Source of the DNA: Myxococcota bacterium
GTDB taxonomy: Bacteria; Myxococcota_A; UBA9160; PR03
Assembly (NCBI GenBank): GCA_030066475.1
Contig: JASJBO010000167.1
Coordinates: forward strand, 1 to 14,840
Reading direction: 5' to 3'
Length of the DNA: 14,840 nucleotides
The translations under genes were made by a program, and so were the position numbers. The notes under the pieces were generated by a model, which did not search any database, had not been told where the DNA came from, and saw nothing but the letters and a program-made list of their open reading frames with translations. How positions within the stretch are numbered: the stretch's first letter is position 1; the number at the start of each line of letters is the position of its first letter. Below are positions 4,217 through 14,840 of this stretch, in pieces.

Positions 4217-4684
4217 CTAGCCCGATCGGAGCAGCCGAACGTCCAGCTCGAAGGGCTCGGGATCGCTGATGCTGACCCGGGAGAAGTCGGGATGGCGCGG
4301 GTTCAGCAGGAAGTTGTGCTCTCCGGGCACGACGGCCGAAGGTACCCGGAGCACCGGTGTCTCACCTCGCTCGGCCCACTGGGTGCCGACGTCGCGAAGC
4401 TCCTGCGGCCCCGGTTCGAGGCGCCACTCCGTGGGCAGCTCTTGTATCTGGACCTCGCGGATGTCGAAATCCGCAGGGATCTCCACACCAAAGCAGACGA
4501 AGTTGGGAGGCAGCCGGTTGCGATGCAGGTGCACCAGCTGCTCGACTGCAACGAGCGCCCGGCTTTCTGAGCAGTAGACGACCGCTGTTCCGGCGTGGTG
4601 CCAGCGGCCGGGGTAGAGGAGGGCGCCCTCGCCCGTGAAGGCCGTCGCGGCGTGCTCGGCCTTGCAGATGCGCCAGACGCGCAT
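4217..4684 (-). CDS. RES-domain toxin (NAD+-targeting) of a type II toxin-antitoxin module
   Basis: A 155-residue protein that is almost entirely one RES domain. The Arg, Glu and Ser that name the family are visible: Arg27 in YPGRWHH, Glu48 in the VAVEQLVHL helix and Ser116 in VPSAVVPGEHNFLLNP, followed by the typical HPDF. Characterised RES toxins either degrade NAD+ (Pseudomonas putida Res, mycobacterial MbcT) or ADP-ribosylate a target (Sphingobium ParT), so this protein probably attacks cellular NAD+ or a metabolic enzyme when free of its antitoxin. Its ATG overlaps the antitoxin TGA by one base (TGATG), so translation is probably coupled and the toxin is made after its antitoxin. The length is normal and the domain looks intact, so the toxin is probably active. 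Whether it is a phosphorylase, hydrolase or ADP-ribosyltransferase cannot be told from sequence. Confidence 0.93.
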   Translation of the reverse strand: MRVWRICKAEHAATAFTGEGALLYPGRWHHAGTAVVYCSESRALVAVEQLVHLHRNRLPPNFVCFGVEIPADFDIREVQIQELPTEWRLEPGPQELRDVGTQWAERGETPVLRVPSAVVPGEHNFLLNPRHPDFSRVSISDPEPFELDVRLLRSG

Positions 4685-5127
4685 CAGCCGATGATGCCGT
4701 GCTCGATCCTGCCGAGTACCTGGTCGACCTGCTGGACACCGATGTCCGTGTCGAGGAGGCTCAGTGGCTGCTGCCTACCCAGAGCCGCATTGGGGCTCTG
4801 GATCCAATCCGCGGACTCCTCCGGGTCCTCGAAGACCCGATTCGCGTGCTCAATCACGCGAGCCAACCGGTAGAGCCGGTCGGATTCATCTGGCGACAGG
4901 CGCTTCTGCTCCTTTCGCCGCAGGAAGTTCCGGGCCGAGAGATGGAGGATGGTGCAGAGGACGTCGCGGGAGATTCCGTACTGCTCCATCACCGCGAGCA
5001 GGGCGGCGAAGGGCAGGCCCTTCCTCACTCGCTCGGCCAGGTCTTCAGGCGAGCGCACTCTCTTCCCTACGACCTTGGCTCCCCCGAGGACGCTCACGAC
5101 TCCCTCGAGCGGCCGCGGATGGCCCAC
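4684..5127 (-). CDS. ParS/Xre-MbcA family antitoxin (DUF2384)
   Basis: A 147-residue protein starting at GTG 5127, six bases after a perfect AGGAGG (5134-5139). Residues ~20-80 are a helical, Xre-like DNA-binding region. Residues ~86-147 carry the DUF2384/ParS toxin-binding pattern: the helix RLARVIEHANRVFED, then W108 in ADWIQSPNAALGRQQPLSLL, then a closing helix ending IEHGIIG. Proteins of this family bind and block the RES toxin and repress their own promoter, usually by binding inverted repeats. The next gene downstream is the RES toxin, overlapping by one base. An open frame continues far upstream through the antisense of the neighbouring acyltransferase gene, but the strong GTG start and promoter rule out that longer product. 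Confidence 0.92.
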   Translation of the reverse strand: MGHPRPLEGVVSVLGGAKVVGKRVRSPEDLAERVRKGLPFAALLAVMEQYGISRDVLCTILHLSARNFLRRKEQKRLSPDESDRLYRLARVIEHANRVFEDPEESADWIQSPNAALGRQQPLSLLDTDIGVQQVDQVLGRIEHGIIG

Positions 5128-5133
5128 TCGAAA

Positions 5134-5139
5134 CCTCCT
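5134..5139 (-). promoter_or_regulatory. Consensus AGGAGG ribosome binding site of the antitoxin
   Basis: AGGAGG on the minus strand with a 6-nt spacer to GTG 5127. It fixes a GTG start that has no competing in-frame ATG and suggests strong antitoxin translation. Confidence 0.85.
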
Positions 5140-5150
5140 GGACCAGGCTC

Positions 5151-5181
5151 GCCGTTTGGCGTGATTATCGCGCCAAACGGC
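5151..5181. promoter_or_regulatory. Perfect 11-bp inverted repeat, likely antitoxin operator
   Basis: GCCGTTTGGCG (5151-5161) and CGCCAAACGGC (5171-5181) are exact reverse complements separated by 9 bp. The repeat lies 24 bp upstream of the antitoxin GTG and surrounds the predicted -10 box, so a bound antitoxin dimer would block RNA polymerase. ParS/Xre antitoxins are known to autoregulate; binding to this particular repeat is inferred. Confidence 0.8.
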
Positions 5182-5192
5182 TAGATCGTCAA
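5164..5192 (-). promoter_or_regulatory. Sigma-70 type promoter of the toxin-antitoxin operon
   Basis: On the minus strand there is TTGACG (5187-5192), a 17-bp spacer, and GATAAT (5164-5169). This is close to the sigma-70 consensus with the ideal spacing. Transcription would start near 5157 and leave a ~30-nt leader that includes the AGGAGG. The -10 box sits in the centre of the 11-bp inverted repeat. Confidence 0.75.
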
Positions 5193-5227
5193 TTCGGAGC
5201 CGAGGTTTGACCGGGTTGCTGGAGGAG

Positions 5228-5244
5228 CCTCGGTCTAGCCGAGG
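5228..5244. other. Short inverted repeat at the acyltransferase stop
   Basis: CCTCGG (5228-5233) and CCGAGG (5239-5244) form a 6-bp stem with a 5-nt loop that contains the TAG stop of the acyltransferase gene. There is no T-run in either direction. It may help end or stabilise that transcript before the toxin-antitoxin promoter, but the evidence is weak. Confidence 0.25.
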
Positions 5245-6635
5245 TCCCCTCGCTCGGCGGCTGCCAGCAGCTCGTCGAACGATTGGCGCAGCATGCTGCG
5301 GAAGGGCGCCAGGTCGGGCATCGCGGTGCCGTCCGCGTCGAGCCCGATGTAGAGCCGGCCGCAGTAGCCGTACAGCGCGATGCTCACCGGCGTGTGCGGC
5401 GCGGTGGGCGCGATCGGGTAGGCGCCATCGATCGCGGCGCCGGCGAGGTAGCGCGTCATCGGAACGCCGGGCACGTTGGTGACGATCAGCTCGAGGCCCG
5501 CCGACGCGGCGGGCGTGAGCACGCGGTAGAGCCAGCGCGGCATCCCGCTCAGGAACTCGGTGATGGCGGGCAGCGCCTCGGCCGCCGGGTGCGCCTTGCG
5601 CGCCTCGACCCGCTCGTGGATCTCGCGGAGGCGCTCGAGCGGGTCGTCGATCGAGATCGGCAGCCGCACCGTGATGCCCGTGGCGCGGTTGCCGACCGCC
5701 GCCTCGAGCCCCTGCTCGGCCGGCGGGCGCAGGTTGATCGGCACCAGCGTCGCCAGCTCCTCCACCTGGTCGTGGCCGGCGTCGCGGTGCCAGCGTCCCA
5801 TCGCCCCGGCCACGCCGGCGAGCAGCAGGTCGACCATCTTGCCGCCGACCCGGCGCTTGGCGGCGCGCAGCGCCTCGAAGTCGAGCTCGACCCCGGAGAG
5901 GTGGCGCGAGCGGCCGAACTGCGTGAGCGGCGACTGGCTGCGGAAGCTCGCGTCCTCCACCACCTGCGACACCACGCGCGCCACGTCGGCCCAGCGCGAC
6001 GGATGCCGGGTGTTGCTCCAGACCGCTCCGGCGAGCTGGCCCCAGCGCCGCGCGTCTTCGGACGCCCGCTGGCGCAGGGCCTCGCCGAGCTGCTCGACGA
6101 AGCGCGACTCCGGCCAGGCCCCGGGCGGCTTGCGCGCCGGCGGCGGCAGCGGCTCGCCCTCGCGCTCGGCGTCGGTGAGCGCCGCCAGCACGGCGTTGCC
6201 GCCGACGCCGTCGGCCACCGCGTGGTGCAGCCGGAAGAAGATCGCCGACCGGTCGCCGGGACGGTCGATCTCGATCATCTCCCAGAGCGGGCGGGTGCGG
6301 TCGAAGGGGCGCTCGTAGATCGGACCCACGGTGTGGAACAGCCCGTCGAGCTCGCTCTCGTGCGGCTCGGGCGCGGCCTGCGCGTAGCGGCGCACGTGGA
6401 AGTCGAGGTCGAAGGTCGGGTCCTCCTCCCAGCGAGGTAGCGCCAGGTCGAACGGCGCGTCGACCACGCACTGGCGCAGCCGCGGCACCGCCTCGACCGC
6501 GCGCTCGGCGGCCGCCCGCAGGCGGGCGGGATCGGGCCGGCGATCGAGCAGCATCAGCATCGCCATCGTGGTGCGCTGGCGCGGCTGGTCGGCGTACCAG
6601 AAGGTGAGGTCTTCGGCGCTGAGGGGGGTGGGCAC
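5235..6635 (-). CDS. Wax ester synthase/diacylglycerol O-acyltransferase (WS/DGAT)
   Basis: A 466-residue protein, the normal length for the family. It transfers an acyl group from acyl-CoA to a long-chain alcohol or diacylglycerol, making wax esters or triacylglycerol storage lipid at the inner membrane. The catalytic motif HHAVADG (137-143) matches HHxxxDG. Other family marks are PLWE (116-119), VPINLRP (298-304), NRATG (316-320) and NVPGVP (387-392), a variant of the usual NVPGP. The start is GTG 6635, nine bases after GGGAGG (6645-6650), giving an N-terminus PTPLSAEDLTFWY that aligns with the usual family start; a nearby ATG is out of frame. It is transcribed divergently from the operon beginning at 6742. 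Substrate preference (wax ester or triacylglycerol) cannot be told from sequence. Confidence 0.93.
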   Translation of the reverse strand: MPTPLSAEDLTFWYADQPRQRTTMAMLMLLDRRPDPARLRAAAERAVEAVPRLRQCVVDAPFDLALPRWEEDPTFDLDFHVRRYAQAAPEPHESELDGLFHTVGPIYERPFDRTRPLWEMIEIDRPGDRSAIFFRLHHAVADGVGGNAVLAALTDAEREGEPLPPPARKPPGAWPESRFVEQLGEALRQRASEDARRWGQLAGAVWSNTRHPSRWADVARVVSQVVEDASFRSQSPLTQFGRSRHLSGVELDFEALRAAKRRVGGKMVDLLLAGVAGAMGRWHRDAGHDQVEELATLVPINLRPPAEQGLEAAVGNRATGITVRLPISIDDPLERLREIHERVEARKAHPAAEALPAITEFLSGMPRWLYRVLTPAASAGLELIVTNVPGVPMTRYLAGAAIDGAYPIAPTAPHTPVSIALYGYCGRLYIGLDADGTAMPDLAPFRSMLRQSFDELLAAAERGDLG

Positions 6636-6713
6636 GGCCGCGGTCCTCCCGGGACCATGTTCGCATCCCCGCCCGAGGTGGACACCTGAGGCAGTTTGCC
6701 CCGCCGCCGCCCA

Positions 6714-6741
6714 GGCGCGCCATTCGCTAGCTTGGCGCGCC
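6714..6741. promoter_or_regulatory. Paired GGCGCGCC palindromes and possible leaderless start in the divergent promoter region
   Basis: The 8-bp palindrome GGCGCGCC occurs at 6714-6721 and again at 6734-6741, with centres 20 bp apart, about two helical turns. The second copy touches the ATG at 6742. Between them is TAGCTT (6728-6733), which fits a TANNNT -10 element 8 bp before the ATG. No ribosome binding site precedes this ATG, so a leaderless transcript is possible. No -35 box is clear. Confidence 0.35.
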
Positions 6742-9127: not shown

Positions 9128-10050
9128 GGGTGCTGGTGGCGCTGGGCGGCAACGCGCTGCTGCGGCGCGGCGAGACGCCCGCGCTCGAGGTGCAGCAGCG
9201 CAACGCGCGCCGCGCCGCCGAGTCGGTGGCGGCGCTGGCGCGCGACCACGACGTCGTCGTCACCCACGGCAACGGCCCGCAGGTCGGCCTGCTGGCGCTC
9301 CAGTCGGCGGCGCACGCGGCCGCGCACGGGGCGGCGGGCGGCGACGGCCGGCCCGACCCGCTCGACGTGCTCGATGCCGAGTCGGAGGGCCTGATCGGCC
9401 ACCTGCTCGAGCTCGAGCTGCGTGTCGCGCTGCCGGGGCGCGAGCTGGCGACCCTGCTGACGCAGGTCGAGGTGGATGCAGCCGATCCCGCCTTCGCGGC
9501 GCCCAGCAAGCCGGTCGGCCCGGTCTACCCGCCGGACACGGCGCGCGCGCTGGCGGCCCGACACGGTTGGCAGCTCGTCCCCGACGGCGACGGCCTGCGC
9601 CGCGTGGTGTGCTCGCCCGCGCCGCGCCGCATCCTGGCGTTGGGGAGCATCCGCCGGCTGCTCGATGCCGGGACGCTCGTGGTGTGCGCGGGCGGGGGCG
9701 GCATCCCCGTGGTGGCCGAGGGCGGGCGCCTGCGGGGCGCCGAGGCGGTGGTGGACAAGGACCGCACCAGCGCGCTGCTGGCCGCCGCGCTCGACTGCGA
9801 CGCGCTGCTGCTGCTCACCGACGTGGACGCCGTCTACGCGGACTGGGACGAGGGCCGCACGCGGCCCTTCCGCGACGTGCCGCCCGAGGCGCTGCGCGCG
9901 CAGCGCTTCGATCCCGGCAGCATGGGTCCGAAGGTGGAGGCGGCGTGTCGCTTCGCCGACAGCGGCCGAGGGTTCGCGGCGATCGGCCGTCTCGACGACG
10001 CGGCGGCGATTCTCGACGGGCAGTCGGGAACGCGCGTGCATCTGGGCTGA
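9124..10050 (+). CDS. arcC: Carbamate kinase
   Basis: A 308-residue amino-acid-kinase-fold enzyme that interconverts carbamoyl phosphate + ADP and carbamate + ATP. Family motifs are present in order: LGGNAL (7-12), THGNGPQVG (47-55), SKPVGP with Lys128 (128-133), CAGGGGIPV (188-196), VVDKDRTSALLA (209-220), TDVDAVY (232-238) and GSMGPKVEAA (265-274). Length is normal. It starts at GTG 9124, overlapping the upstream stop by 4 nt. Arginine deiminase and ornithine carbamoyltransferase, the usual partners in the ADI pathway, are not in this window; the partners are an aspartoacylase-like hydrolase and a CpgS-like protein. It may therefore draw carbamoyl phosphate from another source, such as a ureido or carbamoyl compound, with ATP as the gain. 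The direction of the reaction is inferred. Confidence 0.92.
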   Translation: MRVLVALGGNALLRRGETPALEVQQRNARRAAESVAALARDHDVVVTHGNGPQVGLLALQSAAHAAAHGAAGGDGRPDPLDVLDAESEGLIGHLLELELRVALPGRELATLLTQVEVDAADPAFAAPSKPVGPVYPPDTARALAARHGWQLVPDGDGLRRVVCSPAPRRILALGSIRRLLDAGTLVVCAGGGGIPVVAEGGRLRGAEAVVDKDRTSALLAAALDCDALLLLTDVDAVYADWDEGRTRPFRDVPPEALRAQRFDPGSMGPKVEAACRFADSGRGFAAIGRLDDAAAILDGQSGTRVHLG

Positions 10051-10066
10051 AACCCCGAACGCCTCC

Positions 10067-10082
10067 GGAAATCGCGATTCCC
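10067..10082. promoter_or_regulatory. 16-bp near-palindrome upstream of the signalling operon
   Basis: The sequence GGAAATCGCGATTCCC is symmetric about 10074/10075 with one mismatched pair. It lies 17 bp after the carbamate kinase stop and 115 bp before the histidine kinase start. It could be an operator for the downstream operon. No promoter with good spacing was found between it and 10198. Confidence 0.25.
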
Positions 10083-10197
10083 CTGCGGGCCCCGAAATCG
10101 AGCGGCTTCCGCGCCTTCTTGCTCAGGCGCGATCGCGAACGGTCGATACGCAGCTCGAAGCCCCATGTGTTCGCGCGAACTCCGGCAAGGAACGGGC

Positions 10198-11262
10198 ATG
10201 AGCGAGTCGAGTCCCGCCGCGGTGGGCGCGCGGCCGCTCGATGCAGGCGCGCGCGCGGCGATCCTCGACGACCTCTCGACCGCGCTGCTCGTCGTCGGCG
10301 ACGACGAGACCATCGCCTACGCGAACCCGCGCGCGGAAGAGCTGCTGGGCGCCGCGCTTCCCCTGGCCGGACGCGCGGCCGCCGGTGTCCTGGCGCCCAT
10401 GGACCGGCTGCGCGAGATCGCGGCGGCGGCGGTGCGCGACGACAGTCGCGCCTCGGTCACGATCCAGCGCGACGGCGAGGCCCCGAAGGAGATCGGGATT
10501 CAGCTGAGCGAGATCGACTTCGGGCAGGGGCCGGCGACGCTGATCGTATTCCAGGACATCAGCCACTTCCTGCGGCTGCAATCGGAGCGCGACCACCTGC
10601 TGAAGCTCGCGACCGTGGGCGAGGTGCTGCCCTCGATCCTGCACGAGCTGAAGAACCCGCTCGCCTCGGTCACGAGCGCCGTCGAGCTGCTGGTCGAGGA
10701 GGCACCCCCCGGGCCGTTCCAGAACGATCTGCACGCGATCCTGACGGAAGTGCGCCGCATGAAGCTCGGCTTCGAGGGGATCGGCATCGCGGGCCGGGCG
10801 CTCCACAGCGAGCGCCACACCGCAGTCGACCTCGCGCTCCGACACGCGGTCCAGGTGTTCCACGCCCGGGCCGAGCAGGACGGCATCGAGCTTCGCTGCG
10901 AGGTCCCCGACCTGCCCCTGCTGCGACTCGACGACGCGGTCATGCGCGCCATCGCGTTCAACCTCGTCAACAACGCCCTGCACGCCTGCCGCCGCGGCGA
11001 CTCGGTGCGGGTCGCGGCCCACCTCGAGGCCGGGGGCGGACGTTTCGCGCTCGAGGTCACCGACACCGGCGTCGGCATGAGCGCCGAGACCTGCGCCCGC
11101 TGCACCGAGCTGTTCTACACCACGAAGAAGAGCGGCAGCGGGATCGGGCTCGCGCTGTGCGACAGCACGCTGAAGGCGGCGGGGGGCGAGCTCGCGATTG
11201 CCTCCGAGCTCGGAGCGGGCACGACGATGTCGGCCCGTGTCCCGCTGGAAACACGTCCATGA
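10198..11262 (+). CDS. Soluble PAS-domain sensor histidine kinase (NtrB-like core)
   Basis: A 354-residue kinase with no transmembrane segment or signal peptide, so it senses in the cytoplasm. Residues ~18-125 are a PAS domain (ILDDLSTALLVVGDDETIAYANP). Residues ~135-200 are the dimerisation/phosphoacceptor domain with His149 in HELKNPLAS. Residues ~235-350 are the ATPase domain: N-box NLVNNA (255-260), DTGVGM (289-294), FYTTKKSGSGIGLAL (306-320) and GAGTTMSARVPL. It should autophosphorylate His149 and pass phosphate to the receiver protein three genes downstream. ATG 10198 is preferred to ATG 10165 because AAGGAA (10187-10192) precedes it with a 5-nt spacer and the product then starts just before the PAS domain. 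It opens a six-gene operon, with 19 nt to the next gene. No PAS ligand can be read from sequence. Confidence 0.9.
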   Translation: MSESSPAAVGARPLDAGARAAILDDLSTALLVVGDDETIAYANPRAEELLGAALPLAGRAAAGVLAPMDRLREIAAAAVRDDSRASVTIQRDGEAPKEIGIQLSEIDFGQGPATLIVFQDISHFLRLQSERDHLLKLATVGEVLPSILHELKNPLASVTSAVELLVEEAPPGPFQNDLHAILTEVRRMKLGFEGIGIAGRALHSERHTAVDLALRHAVQVFHARAEQDGIELRCEVPDLPLLRLDDAVMRAIAFNLVNNALHACRRGDSVRVAAHLEAGGGRFALEVTDTGVGMSAETCARCTELFYTTKKSGSGIGLALCDSTLKAAGGELAIASELGAGTTMSARVPLETRP

Positions 11263-11281
11263 GGACAGGAAGGAGAGGGCA

Positions 11282-11650
11282 ATGAGCTCCCGAACGGATC
11301 AGCTGAACACGATCCTCCGCTCGCTGCAGTCGGGGAGTCCGGAGATCGAGGCCAGCGCGCTCGTGTCGGAGGACGGCCTCATGATCGCGAGCGCGCTCCC
11401 CCAGCACATCGACGAGGTCCGCGTCGCGGGCATGAGCGCCACCCTCATCAGCCTCGGCACCCGCGCCGTCAGCGAGCTCGACATGGGCTCGATGGAGCAG
11501 GTGCTGATCCGGGGCGAGAAGGGGTACGCCGTGATGGTCAAGGCGACCGAGGGGACCGACCTGCTCGTGTTGACCACGGCCGAGGCCAAGCTCGGCATGG
11601 TCTTCCTCGACATGAGCCGCGCCGTGAGCGAGATCAAGAAGGTCCTCTGA
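11282..11650 (+). CDS. Roadblock/LC7-domain protein (MglB-like)
   Basis: A 122-residue single-domain protein. It starts with a helix (RTDQLNTILRSLQSGSPEIEASAL), then VSEDGLMIASALP, a long helix (VRVAGMSATLISLGTRAVSELD), strands with QVLIRGEKGYAVMVKA and DLLVLTT, and the closing helix AKLGMVFLDMSRAVSEIKKVL. This is the Roadblock/LC7 order. Such proteins dimerise and in bacteria often act on small Ras-like GTPases; MglB in Myxococcus is the GAP of the polarity GTPase MglA. No MglA gene is in the window, so the partner may be encoded elsewhere or be the ParA ATPase of this operon. AAGGAG (11270-11275) with a 6-nt spacer fixes ATG 11282. The next gene follows after 34 nt. Confidence 0.9.
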   Translation: MSSRTDQLNTILRSLQSGSPEIEASALVSEDGLMIASALPQHIDEVRVAGMSATLISLGTRAVSELDMGSMEQVLIRGEKGYAVMVKATEGTDLLVLTTAEAKLGMVFLDMSRAVSEIKKVL

Positions 11651-11684
11651 CCGCCCGCCACGCTACCGAGAAGGAGAAGATCCG

Positions 11685-12446
11685 ATGGCTTCGACCGTTC
11701 TCTTCGAAGACGGGCCTCACAAGAACATCCTGCTCGAGGACTTCAGCGGCGGCCTCGCCGTCCAGGCCAACCAGCACGTGATCGTACACGGCGACGAGGC
11801 GATGATCCTCGATCCGGGCGGCCACAAGGTCTACAACAAGGTGATGGCCGAGCTGAACAGCGTGCTCGGCGGCGGCGCGAAGCTCCGCTACGTGTTCCTC
11901 TCGCACCAGGACCCGGACATCGTGGCGGCCTGCAACGGCTGGCTGATGACGACGGACGCAGACGCCTACATCTCGGAGCTGTGGCAGCGCTTCGTGCCGC
12001 ACTTCGGGCTGGACCGGCTCGTCGAGGACCGGCTCAAGACGATTCCCGACGCCGGCATGCAGCTCGAGCTGGGCGGCTGTCCGCTGAGCCTGGTGCCGGC
12101 CCACTTCCTGCACTCGGCGGGGAACTTCCAGGTCTTCGACCCGGTGGCGAAGATCCTCTACTCGGGCGACCTGGGCGCCTCGCTCGGCCAGGACTACGTG
12201 GAGGTCGCGGACTTCGACGCGCACGTTCCGTTCATGGAGGGCTTCCATCGCCGCTACATGGCCTCGCAGAAGGCGATGGCGGCATGGGCCGGCATGGTGC
12301 GCGATCTGGACCTCGAGATGATCGCGCCGCAGCACGGCGCCCTGTTCCGCGGCCCGGAGCAGGTCGGCCGCTTCATCGACTGGTGCGAGAACCTGGCGTG
12401 CGGCGTGGACGTGCTGGTGGACCTGTTCAAGGTCCCGGGCGCCTAG
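11685..12446 (+). CDS. ODP-type diiron MBL-fold protein (flavodiiron-like, no flavodoxin domain)
   Basis: A 253-residue metallo-beta-lactamase fold protein resembling the diiron half of flavodiiron proteins and the stand-alone ODP proteins. Candidate iron ligands are His74, Asp76 and Asp78 in SHQDPDIV, His143 in FLHSAGNF, Asp162 in YSGDLGAS and His217 in PQHGALF. HxDxD stands where hydrolases have HxHxDH and flavodiiron proteins have HxExD, and the missing third His argues for diiron chemistry rather than dizinc hydrolysis. There is no flavodoxin domain to supply electrons, so a sensory role is more likely than O2 or NO reduction. In Treponema denticola, ODP acts as an iron/oxygen sensor coupled to chemotaxis. 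AAGGAG (11671-11676) with an 8-nt spacer supports ATG 11685. Its place between a Roadblock protein and a receiver protein fits signalling; the ligand (O2, NO or iron) is inferred. Confidence 0.8.
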   Translation: MASTVLFEDGPHKNILLEDFSGGLAVQANQHVIVHGDEAMILDPGGHKVYNKVMAELNSVLGGGAKLRYVFLSHQDPDIVAACNGWLMTTDADAYISELWQRFVPHFGLDRLVEDRLKTIPDAGMQLELGGCPLSLVPAHFLHSAGNFQVFDPVAKILYSGDLGASLGQDYVEVADFDAHVPFMEGFHRRYMASQKAMAAWAGMVRDLDLEMIAPQHGALFRGPEQVGRFIDWCENLACGVDVLVDLFKVPGA

Positions 12447-12461
12447 CGGGGAGGCACGGCG

Positions 12462-13397
12462 TTGGTGCGCGTTCTCGTGCTGGAGGACGAGCAGATGCTC
12501 CGCAGCTCGATGGTGCGGGGGCTCTCGAAGCTCCCCGACGTCACCGTCGAGGGGGCCGGAACGCTCGCGGAGGCGCTGGTCGCGATCGACGCGGCGGCGC
12601 CGGACCTGATCCTCTCCGACCTCGACCTGCCGGACCGCTCCGGCATCGAGCTGGTGGGCGAGCTGGCGACGCGCCGTCTGAAGATCCCGATCGTGTTCAT
12701 CTCGGCCTACCTGAAGGCCTACGGCTCGCAGATCCCGCCCCATGCGGCCGTCAAGGTGCTCGAGAAGCCGGTCGAGCTGAGGACCTTGCGCGAGCTGGTG
12801 CTCGAGTACGTGGGAACGAGCCGGGCCACCGTGGAGCGCTCCACGCCGTTCGAGCTGTGGGACTACGTGCAGCTCGCGGCCATGGGCGGACACTCGGTCC
12901 GGATCGCGGTGTGCGACGCGGAGGGCCGAACCGGCGAGGTGGTCACGCACCGGGGGCAGCTCTGGCGCGCCGAGGACGAGTCGGGCGCCGGGCGGGAGGC
13001 GCTGTTCCGGCTGCTCGCCGCGAAGTCCACCTCGCTCGACTGCCGCGCCCTGGAGGGAGACCCGGGTCCGCGCTGCATCGAGGGTCGCTGGGAGGAGCTG
13101 CTCCTGGAGGCCGCGCGACTGCACGACGAAGGCGCTCGCGCCTCGGACGGGGACGAGCCGCTCGACCGGGCTCTCGAGCGCGCCTTCGACGCGCCGGAGG
13201 CAGCGGTGCCGGAGCCGGATGACGGCTTCGGCGCGGCGATGGAGCGAGGACTCGAGGCGATGCTGGCCAAGGACTACCCGCGCGCGCTCGCAGCCTTCGA
13301 GGCGGCGCAGCAGATCCGCCCCGACGACCGGGTCGTCGTGGCCAACCTGACCCGCCTGCGCGACATGGGCATGGGTGACGAAGGGGGCGAGTCGTGA
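12462..13397 (+). CDS. Response regulator: receiver + DUF4388 + TPR-like tail
   Basis: A 311-residue protein. Residues 1-120 are a receiver domain with the acidic pocket Glu8/Asp9/Glu10 (LEDE), phosphoacceptor Asp53 (LSDLDLP), Ser81 (FISAY) and Lys102 (EKP). Residues ~128-235 match DUF4388 (PFELWDYVQLAAMGG, then GQLWRAED, then a C-terminal helical part); DUF4388 is common with receiver domains in deltaproteobacterial-type genomes and its role is not settled. Residues ~250-305 look like one or two TPR helices (GLEAMLAKDYPRALAAFEAAQQIRPDD). There is no DNA-binding or enzymatic output, so the phosphorylated form probably acts through protein contacts, plausibly with the ParA ATPase next door. 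GGGGAGG (12448-12454) precedes TTG 12462 by 7 nt; GTG 12465 is an equally possible start. The stop overlaps the ParA start by 4 nt. Confidence 0.87.
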   Translation: MVRVLVLEDEQMLRSSMVRGLSKLPDVTVEGAGTLAEALVAIDAAAPDLILSDLDLPDRSGIELVGELATRRLKIPIVFISAYLKAYGSQIPPHAAVKVLEKPVELRTLRELVLEYVGTSRATVERSTPFELWDYVQLAAMGGHSVRIAVCDAEGRTGEVVTHRGQLWRAEDESGAGREALFRLLAAKSTSLDCRALEGDPGPRCIEGRWEELLLEAARLHDEGARASDGDEPLDRALERAFDAPEAAVPEPDDGFGAAMERGLEAMLAKDYPRALAAFEAAQQIRPDDRVVVANLTRLRDMGMGDEGGES

Positions 13398-14212
13398 CGA
13401 GCACGCGCATTGCGATCACGAGTCAGAAGGGGGGCGTCGGCAAGACGACGGTCGCGCTGAATCTGGCCCCGGCGCTGGCAGCGCGCGGTCTCCGGACGCT
13501 GCTCGTCGATCTCGATCCGCAGGGCGGGATCGTCCTCTCGCTCGCCCAGGAAGACGGCAGCATGCCGGGTCTGGCCGACGTCCTGGCCGGGCGCGCCTCG
13601 CTCGCGGACACGCTGCGGCCGACCCGGCTGCGCGGGCTGACCCTGCTTCCTCGGGGACGCCTGGCCGCGATCGACGTGCCCGACTTCGAGCAGGCGCTCC
13701 ACCGTCCGGGGGTCCTCGAAGGCCTGCTGGACGGCGCGGAGGCCGACTACGACCGCGTGCTGATCGACACCCCGGCCGGGATGGGGCTGGTCACCAGGGC
13801 CGCGCTGTCGGTGGTCCACTTCGCGCTGGTTCCGTTCCAGGCGGAGCCGCTGGGGCTGCGCTCGCTCGGCCAGGCGCTCGAGGTGATCGAGCACGTTCGC
13901 AGCGGCGCGAACCCCGGGCTCGAGCTGCTGGGGATCCTCCCGACGATGCTCGAGTTCGGCAACGAGGAGGCCCTGGCCGTGCTCTCGGAGATCTGGACCG
14001 GCTTCGAGGGGGTGCTCGAGTCGGCGATCCCGCGCTCGAGCGTGTTCGTCCACGCCAGTCGCAAGGGACTCCCGGTCTCGTTCCTCGGCGGCGCTCCGGC
14101 GGCGGAGGCGCGGCGCTTCGAACACCTGGCGGACGAGGTCGAGGTGACCATCGCGGCGCTCTCGGCAAAGGACGACGACGATGCAGAGCGACCCGAACGC
14201 GCCCTCCTCTGA
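13394..14212 (+). CDS. ParA/MinD-family ATPase
   Basis: A 272-residue deviant-Walker ATPase. The P-loop KGGVGKTT (12-19) has the signature lysine Lys12 and Lys17; the switch I-like segment VDLDPQGG is at 38-45 and Walker B VLIDTPAG at 122-129. A variable region follows, and the last ~20 residues are acidic then basic (KDDDDAERPERALL) without an amphipathic MinD-type membrane helix. Such ATPases dimerise on ATP and place cargo such as plasmids, chemotaxis clusters or polar proteins on the nucleoid. No ParB gene or parS sites are nearby, so chromosome or plasmid segregation is unlikely; the operon points to positioning of a signalling complex, as with ParC/PpfA-type orphan ParAs. It starts at GTG 13394, overlapping the receiver gene stop (GTGA). 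Confidence 0.9.
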   Translation: MTSTRIAITSQKGGVGKTTVALNLAPALAARGLRTLLVDLDPQGGIVLSLAQEDGSMPGLADVLAGRASLADTLRPTRLRGLTLLPRGRLAAIDVPDFEQALHRPGVLEGLLDGAEADYDRVLIDTPAGMGLVTRAALSVVHFALVPFQAEPLGLRSLGQALEVIEHVRSGANPGLELLGILPTMLEFGNEEALAVLSEIWTGFEGVLESAIPRSSVFVHASRKGLPVSFLGGAPAAEARRFEHLADEVEVTIAALSAKDDDDAERPERALL

Positions 14213-14756
14213 CCTCGAGCGAGCGCGCGCCATCACGAAGCGGCTGCGTCGCCCCGGAGCGCGGCGCGGCCGCGAGGCCACGCCGCGGGTCGGACGCCCG
14301 ATCGCCGGCGCCGCCGGCGCGGCGGTCGAGTCCGCAGCGGTCTGCGAGGACGCGACCGGTCTCGGCATCCGGGCGGCGGACAACCTCGGCTCGCGCTTCT
14401 GGAACGACCTGCTCTCGCAGTGCCTGGAGCTGGTTCTTCGGGAGGGCGGCACCGCCGCGTTCGCCGTCGACGAGCGGGGCCTCGGCATCGCGCAGGTCGG
14501 CGATCTGGACTCCGCGGAGGTCGAGGGCACGGGTTCGCGGCTCGTGATCGCTCTCGAGCAGGCATCGCGCATGGAGTCGTTCGCGGGCCGTCGGCCCGGC
14601 TCGATCCTGATCGAGTTCGGTCGGCAGTGGCTGACCGGCTTCGCGATCGAGGCCGCCAACGGCACGCGCGTCGTACTCGGCATCGTCGCCAGCGAGCCGC
14701 TCGCCGAGCGCTCTCGCGAGCGCGTCTCGAGCCTGGTGACCGAGCTGCTCACCTAG
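14181..14756 (+). CDS. Probable Roadblock-like protein with Arg-rich N-terminal extension
   Basis: A 191-residue protein. Residues 1-60 are polar, Arg/Ala/Gly-rich and likely disordered (ITKRLRRPGARRGREATPR). Residues ~73-190 read like a divergent Roadblock/LC7 fold: helix FWNDLLSQCLELVLREGG, strands TAAFAVDERGLGIAQVG, a helix RLVIALEQASRME, strands SILIEFGRQWLTGFAIEA and TRVVLGIVASE, and a closing helix RSRERVSSLVTELL. This assignment is from pattern, without an alignment. AAAGGA (14167-14172) with an 8-nt spacer supports ATG 14181, giving a 32-nt overlap with the ParA gene. The basic tail could bind the nucleoid or stimulate the ParA ATPase, as short basic N-termini of ParB/MinE-like partners do; this is inference. 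Confidence 0.7.
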   Translation: MQSDPNAPSSDLERARAITKRLRRPGARRGREATPRVGRPIAGAAGAAVESAAVCEDATGLGIRAADNLGSRFWNDLLSQCLELVLREGGTAAFAVDERGLGIAQVGDLDSAEVEGTGSRLVIALEQASRMESFAGRRPGSILIEFGRQWLTGFAIEAANGTRVVLGIVASEPLAERSRERVSSLVTELLT

Positions 14757-14763
14757 GCTGGTC

Positions 14764-14840
14764 GACTTCGCTCGCCTGCGGCTCGCTGCGCGCTCCGGCT
14801 GCGCCTCCGCTTGCGGCGTCCTGATGGACTTCGCTCGCCT
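14764..14840. repeat. GC-rich intergenic repeat tract with 63-bp-spaced direct repeats
   Basis: GACTTCGCTCGCCT occurs at 14764-14777 and again at 14827-14840, 63 bp apart, and the second copy runs to the window edge. Between them are related pieces rich in GCTCGC, GCGCGCTCC and CTCCGCTTGCGGC. It begins 8 bp after the last gene of the signalling operon. It could be a dispersed intergenic repeat family of this genome or a small tandem array; only one and a bit units are visible. Confidence 0.5.

Follow-up and report, generated by a model that had tools for sequence, protein, structure and literature searches.

Six genes in a Myxococcota bacterium (assembly GCA_030066475.1, contig JASJBO010000167.1) raise the question of what a diiron protein of an oxygen-binding family does in the company of two Roadblock proteins, a histidine kinase, a receiver-domain regulator and a ParA ATPase. 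They lie in a stretch of 14,840 nt on the forward strand, referred to here as the window, and a first-pass annotation of its sequence had read them as one system. The six-gene neighbourhood is, with near certainty, a conserved system. It is composed of a core, namely the first Roadblock protein (RB1) and the diiron protein (ODP), an added pair of kinase (HK) and regulator (RR), and ParA with a second Roadblock protein (RB2), which together make up one of two exchangeable cassettes. With slightly better than even confidence, we propose that the operon encodes an oxygen- or redox-sensing Roadblock hub that would be positioned in the cell by the ParA ATPase. The genes and motifs concerned, from open reading frame (ORF) calls, Pfam, sequence motifs and predicted structure, are as follows.

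10198–11262, + strand: HK, PAS histidine kinase, 354 aa (ORF call, Pfam)
11282–11650, + strand: RB1, Roadblock/LC7 protein, 122 aa (Robl_LC7, 4.6e-15)
11685–12446, + strand: ODP, metallo-beta-lactamase-fold protein of the oxygen-binding diiron family, 253 aa (PF19583, 8.3e-70)
11904–11918, + strand: HQDPD motif, ODP residues 74–78 (invariant in 22/22 rows, identical in the solved structure 6qrq)
12465–13397, + strand: RR, receiver domain, DUF4388 and one weak TPR stretch (Pfam)
13394–14212, + strand: ParA, ParA/MinD-family ATPase (AAA_31, 2.9e-30)
13427–13447, + strand: deviant Walker A motif of ParA, KGGVGKT (sequence motif)
14181–14756, + strand: RB2, second, divergent Roadblock protein, 191 aa (predicted structure)
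14205–14249, + strand: N-terminal stretch of RB2, SSDLERARAITKRLR, modelled as a helix, with a basic tail after it (candidate peptide for ParA activation)

A conserved neighbourhood with separable parts

The ORF calls agree with the annotation in placing the six genes on one strand with gaps of no more than 34 nt (19, 34 and 15–18 nt; a TTG at 12462 is an alternative to the RR start at 12465) and two overlaps, of 4 and 32 nt, at the last two joints. ODP has 3483 relatives at E 0.001 or better. A profile of 22 aligned ODP proteins yielded 362 confirmed relatives, of which the best 80 were kept by similarity to the ODP of the window. Unless stated otherwise, counts refer to these 80 loci, given L numbers, plus the window (n = 81), and to genes on the ODP strand at distances up to 5 kb, as far as the contig reaches. 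Matches weaker than 1e-15 for RB1 and for TMRB, our label for a membrane protein with a Roadblock domain, and weaker than 1e-20 for RB2 were dropped, which separated the three Roadblock profiles. The 80 loci come from myxobacteria and other 'delta' bacteria, alpha-, beta- and gammaproteobacteria, Planctomycetota (L010, L012, L022), acidobacteria (L049, L053) and one actinobacterium (L060).

RB1 accompanies ODP in 76/81 loci, a linkage beyond chance. The other parts are less frequent: RR was found in 42 loci, TMRB and an OmpA-domain protein in 40 each, HK in 37, ParA in 18, RB2 in 17 and protoglobin in 5. RB1 belongs to the Roadblock family by its Robl_LC7 match, and its alignment of 26 rows has a mean column identity of 75%. 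In a wider scan of the phylum of Minicystis rosea, 21 of 188 genomes contained ODP (E 1e-30 or better), at 24 places altogether. RB1 lay no more than 1.5 kb away at 15 of these 24, and its pairing with ODP is thus looser when the ODPs are more distant. Seven gammaproteobacterial loci (L002, L003, L009, L011, L015, L021, L024) hold RB1 and ODP with no other sought part within 5 kb and are perhaps a minimal form.

All six parts are present in 13/81 loci at the thresholds set, or in 12, the window included, if L064 is set aside, where RR was unconfirmed at E<1e-15. The gene order of the window is found in ten loci (the window, L001, L016, L018, L047, L055, L059, L062, L067, L075); two six-part loci are arranged otherwise, L012 with ParA and RB2 fused and L077 with ODP last. 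At L071 and L079 the contig ends inside ParA, which leaves RB2 out of sight. Linkage in related genomes, on which the annotation had staked its case, is thus kept, and its six-gene system stands in so far as the order recurs in nine other loci. An indivisible system was rejected: HK/RR and ParA/RB2 are each absent from many loci that have the RB1–ODP core. The domain families are all common ones, and the six genes could be an ordinary operon of unrelated signalling genes with no common function; given RB1 near ODP in 76 loci across several phyla, the repeated order, the fusions and the exclusive cassettes, we find this very improbable. A search of excerpts from the open-access literature found no report matching this gene combination, only related and unrelated systems, so that its absence from print is not established.

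The diiron protein, the kinase and the regulator

ODP scores 235 bits against PF19583 (cut-off 27.2), and ODP and Lactamase_B are the only families above the Pfam cut-off; a flavodoxin domain is not among them. It aligns over residues 4–248 with 6qrq (E 5e-67), which we take to be the ODP of Treponema denticola, and nearly full length with a second solved ODP (E 8e-59). This closeness to solved oxygen-binding diiron proteins bears out the ODP-type identity assigned to it from the sequence. The residues expected at the metal site (H74, D76, D78, H140, D162, H217), whose role as ligands we assume from the flavodiiron/ODP family, are identical in 6qrq and invariant in 22/22 aligned ODPs. Membership of the flavodiiron proteins (FprA/flavorubredoxin) was rejected, the flavodoxin domain that would follow the metallo-beta-lactamase domain being absent from the 253 aa, and database names such as 'FprA family A-type flavoprotein' are unfitting on the same ground.

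The ODP of T. denticola is described as a chemotaxis oxygen sensor that is genetically coupled to a signalling protein (PMC7666581). In the genomes of three relatives ODP domains are fused to other domains, GGDEF in L105 and Ser/Thr kinases in L106 and L107, and this fits a signal-input role. A protoglobin gene lies near ODP in 5/81 loci (L010, L032, L033, L070, L077; confirmed by Pfam in L010, L070 and L077), directly after it in L070 and L077, and HGbRL joins a globin sensor domain to a Roadblock domain (PMC4476040); together these fit gas sensing via Roadblock partners. Alternatively, ODP might be an enzyme of O2 or NO reduction or of hydrolysis that the signalling genes only regulate or localise. 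Related flavodiiron proteins reduce O2 or NO (PMC6033852), and the metal-site motifs of ODP are intact; however, the flavodoxin domain is missing, the solved relatives found are oxygen-binding diiron proteins only, the T. denticola protein is a sensor, and ODP is fused to output domains elsewhere. We therefore judge an enzymatic role improbable, and ODP likely acts as a sensor.

HK has HATPase_c (1e-18) and HisKA (2.3e-7) domains, with PAS_8 (2.8e-4) just under its cut-off. Its HELKNPL phospho-acceptor box is intact and the N and G boxes are readable in the sequence; a hydrophobic anchor is not apparent by eye. RR matches Response_reg (4.1e-16) and DUF4388 (2.5e-6; 27.9 bits against a cut-off of 25, with 2/5 scanned relatives just below it), TPR_2 (0.0024) lying under its cut-off, and retains the acidic SDxDLPD and lysine–proline EKP motifs of a receiver. 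Apart from these two sub-cut-off domains, the Pfam matches uphold the domain assignments first made for HK, RB1, ODP, RR and ParA, and with HATPase_c, HisKA and Response_reg above cut-off and the phospho-acceptor motifs intact, the proposed two-component pair is canonical His-Asp by motif. RR combines a receiver with DUF4388, presumably the PATAN domain, as do PATAN-type regulators. At 22 loci with RB1, TMRB and the OmpA-domain protein beside ODP neither HK nor RR was seen, and we accordingly regard the pair as an added output.

The same parts could also make up a polarity module, the kind of system put forward in the annotation; ParA and the two Roadblock proteins would then mark a pole and control motility or pili through the DUF4388 regulator. 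The Roadblock proteins MglB and MglC build polarity in M. xanthus (PMC10329633), and PATAN-CheY regulators take part in the type IV pilus-based phototaxis of cyanobacteria (PMC5812497). Yet among the neighbouring genes examined, none for motility or pili is recurrent, and the proteobacterial loci lacking HK and RR show a core that occurs independently of the supposed output. We consider such a module quite unlikely.

Exchangeable cassettes and the ParA–RB2 pair

The alternative to ParA and RB2 is a cassette of the membrane-anchored TMRB and an OmpA-domain protein. No locus holds parts of both: ParA or RB2 is present in 20/81 loci, TMRB or OmpA in 41 and neither in 20, and among loci with RB1, HK and RR the corresponding numbers are 17, 14 and 5, again with none holding both. 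Bradyrhizobium sp. BTAi1 (L056) has the version with the OmpA-domain protein and TMRB, and Minicystis rosea DSM 24000 (L034) has the order HK-RB1-ODP-RR with neither cassette in the 5 kb examined. Both cassettes together were likewise absent from 22 wider regions of the Minicystis rosea phylum, which cover 23 of the 24 places and include about ten contigs already in the 80 loci. RB2 and TMRB both have the Roadblock fold and are related in sequence (probability 81, E 1.2e-5; second comparison E 3.6e-6). This swap of ParA for a membrane anchor in relatives suggests that the kit sets the cellular site of oxygen sensing.

A hydropathy cut-off between soluble and membrane second Roadblocks did not give a clean split, and family profiles were used instead. 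It gave 34 'TM' proteins without ParA and none with it, and 19 'soluble' proteins with ParA and 18 without; by profile, 14 of the latter 18 are TMRB family members that lie below the cut-off, and some loci are counted twice. RB1 columns also differ between the cassettes (S/G versus R near the C-terminus, Q versus E before the LIRG/LVRG strand), and such cassette-linked differences are more numerous in RB1 than in ODP. Being confounded by kinship, this residue signal was given no weight.

ParA has an intact signature-lysine Walker A context (SQKGGVGKTT), and its solved relatives by sequence include Soj proteins (1wcv, entered as a segregation protein, E 1.4e-24; 6iub, E 2.1e-24). RB2 has no Pfam family match, and comparisons with the RB1 and solved-sequence profiles were too weak to call it a Roadblock protein by sequence alone. 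The structure model was used instead: it places a Roadblock fold at residues 71–191 and matches MglB, which turns the 'probable' second Roadblock of the annotation into a fold assignment. The tie between ParA and a Roadblock protein, also proposed there, is borne out by the gene order: the two genes adjoin wherever both are seen and are fused at L010:3848–5197 (450 aa) and L012:9846–11063 (406 aa). A further RB2 copy lies at the contig start of L062. Tandem RB2-type Roadblock domains occur in one protein at L054:9892–10761, with no ParA nearby. A divergent copy of the system at L122:626–8184 encodes RB1, ODP, a 1040-aa HD-PAS-kinase-like protein, a receiver protein and ParA, followed by a soluble second Roadblock of 155 aa and a second receiver protein with a TPR-like end (domain names beyond the profile matches were read by eye).

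Activators described for ParA/MinD ATPases have a short, basic N-terminus attached to an interaction domain (PMC7993993), and ParB is one such case (PMC12462528). A pattern describing the N-terminal stretch of RB2 is found in 15/22 RB2 rows: in 10/12 beside ParA, in 5/8 database proteins of unexamined context and in 0/2 others. It also occurs in the two divergent second Roadblocks, both soluble, that lie beside ParA at L076 and L122, in 0/30 TMRB and 0/26 RB1 sequences, and in 3/801 other neighbour ORFs, many of which are possibly spurious. RB2 is therefore likely, by inference, to be a Roadblock-type partner of ParA.

From the gene set, its conservation, the folds, the catalytic motifs, the exclusive cassettes and the fusions, we infer a series of sensing, binding and positioning steps. 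RB1 and the diiron ODP would form the sensing core, as their constant pairing suggests. ODP would bind O2 or shift its redox state and relay this to RB1, as the Treponema protein and the fusions of ODP to output domains lead us to expect. The second Roadblock would give the hub its cell address: soluble RB2 may dock on ParA via its N-terminal stretch with basic residues and stimulate the ParA ATPase, whose cycling on the nucleoid would place the hub. Many of the relatives that lack ParA would instead have their second Roadblock fixed to the inner membrane, accompanied by the OmpA-domain protein. HK, under the control of its PAS domain, of the hub or of both, would phosphorylate the REC-DUF4388-TPR protein as the output. 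For the positioning of the hub over the nucleoid we would offer an even bet.

The main rival is that ParA serves as an NTPase switch and positions nothing, with RB1 and RB2 regulating its nucleotide state, as in MglB–MglA or CvnB-type pairs, and bound ParA signalling to the kinase and regulator. Roadblock proteins often regulate NTPases (PMC10329633), and conservons unite a histidine kinase, a Roadblock protein and a GTPase (PMC13343842). No Ras-like GTPase was found among the 12 window proteins scanned, nor among the matches listed for neighbours at 14 ParA-type loci (25 families, 66 ORFs; 26 families lie outside the list). On the other hand, the alternative cassette has so far no NTPase and has membrane-anchored parts instead, which argues for an address rather than a switch. 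The fused ParA of L012 has the P-loop KGGVGGTT, without the usual lysine, and is probably an ATPase unable to hydrolyse ATP normally, as its motif suggests; normal nucleotide cycling is then probably dispensable there. We rate the switch as unlikely, though it is the reading to be taken most seriously beside that of a positioned hub.

Several observations weigh against a hub positioned by ParA: (i) ParA is present in only 18/81 loci, so the core does not need it. (ii) The ODP tree requires five cassette changes, of which well-supported branches force only one, and exclusivity may thus rest on few events; Fisher values for it take no account of kinship. (iii) At L020, a membrane-type locus, a gene of the ParA/MinD family occurs on the opposite strand at a distance of about 5 kb. 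(iv) The profile similarity of RB2 to RB1 is weak (probability 9). (v) The N-terminal motif is a loose pattern written after the sequences had been seen; it misses 7/22 RB2 rows, about five of them near-misses by eye, and is absent from the RB2 of L064, which lies beside ParA and outside the alignment. (vi) L054 and L073 have RB2 without ParA, and L073 has by eye a similar N-terminal stretch though no ParA is near. (vii) In the fusions this stretch is a remnant (L010) or gone (L012). (viii) No recurring cargo gene was found in the neighbourhoods examined.

The surrounding window and known systems

Upstream of HK, on the same strand, lies a carbamate kinase gene, and between the two is one further feature.

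10051–10197, + strand: 147-nt gap from the end of the carbamate kinase gene to the start of HK

An operon promoter would most likely lie in this gap; a search of it for a sigma-70-like site was negative, and promoter and terminator scans of 9900–14840 found nothing. Directly after RB2, a 20-nt direct repeat, 90% alike, occupies 14758–14777 and 14821–14840 (63 nt from start to start). Elsewhere in the window (4217–6723, - strand) a RES-domain toxin gene (155 aa) adjoins a 679-aa ORF that ends in an Xre/MbcA/ParS antitoxin of 120 residues; its first 560 residues match no Pfam family and could be either a long extension or the result of a wrong start.

As a whole, the gene set fits none of the conservons, the Mgl module, PomXYZ or the ODP system of T. 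denticola. The ODP of the window matches 6qrq, with identical expected metal-site residues, but the partners in T. denticola are a homologue of methyl-accepting chemotaxis proteins (MCP) and a CheA array, whereas here they are a Roadblock pair, a PAS kinase, a REC-DUF4388-TPR protein and ParA. Conservons (CvnA-D) set a histidine kinase and a Roadblock protein beside a P-loop NTPase in an operon (PMC13343842); the window shares the kinase and the Roadblock protein, has a ParA-type ATPase in place of the Ras-like GTPase (CvnD), and adds a second Roadblock, ODP and a receiver protein. No CvnC- or CvnD-like protein was found among the 12 scanned window proteins, nor was a cognate small GTPase of the kind that MglB has, a sub-threshold cobW match (E 0.0033) not being Ras-like.

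The MglA/MglB/MglC/RomR module of Myxococcus also combines two Roadblock proteins with a receiver-domain protein (PMC10329633), RomR containing the receiver domain (PMC6785124); in the window no MglA-like GTPase was found, and ParA, a kinase and ODP are present. PomXYZ and other ParA/MinD systems resemble it in a ParA partner with a short N-terminal extension, containing basic residues, on an interaction domain (PMC7993993), but the candidate partner here is a predicted Roadblock-fold protein. In HGbRL of Methylacidiphilum a sensor (globin) domain is joined to a Roadblock domain (PMC4476040); there a haem globin is part of one polypeptide, whereas the window has a separate gene for a diiron protein beside the Roadblock gene, together with HK, RR and ParA.

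Against these systems, a wider reading can be put forward tentatively, at less than even confidence: the locus may belong to a widespread, undescribed oxygen/redox apparatus built on a Roadblock pair, with the second Roadblock as an exchangeable address tag; here a Roadblock protein would activate ParA, which would replace the Ras-like GTPase and move the sensor hub over the nucleoid. If so, Roadblock proteins would have an NTPase partner that is not of the Ras family, ParA systems would acquire a novel kind of adaptor, and the cellular context of ODP proteins would extend beyond spirochaete chemotaxis. Since one core occurs with two exchangeable cassettes, the benefit that a sensor draws from its cellular position becomes a question that can be put directly.

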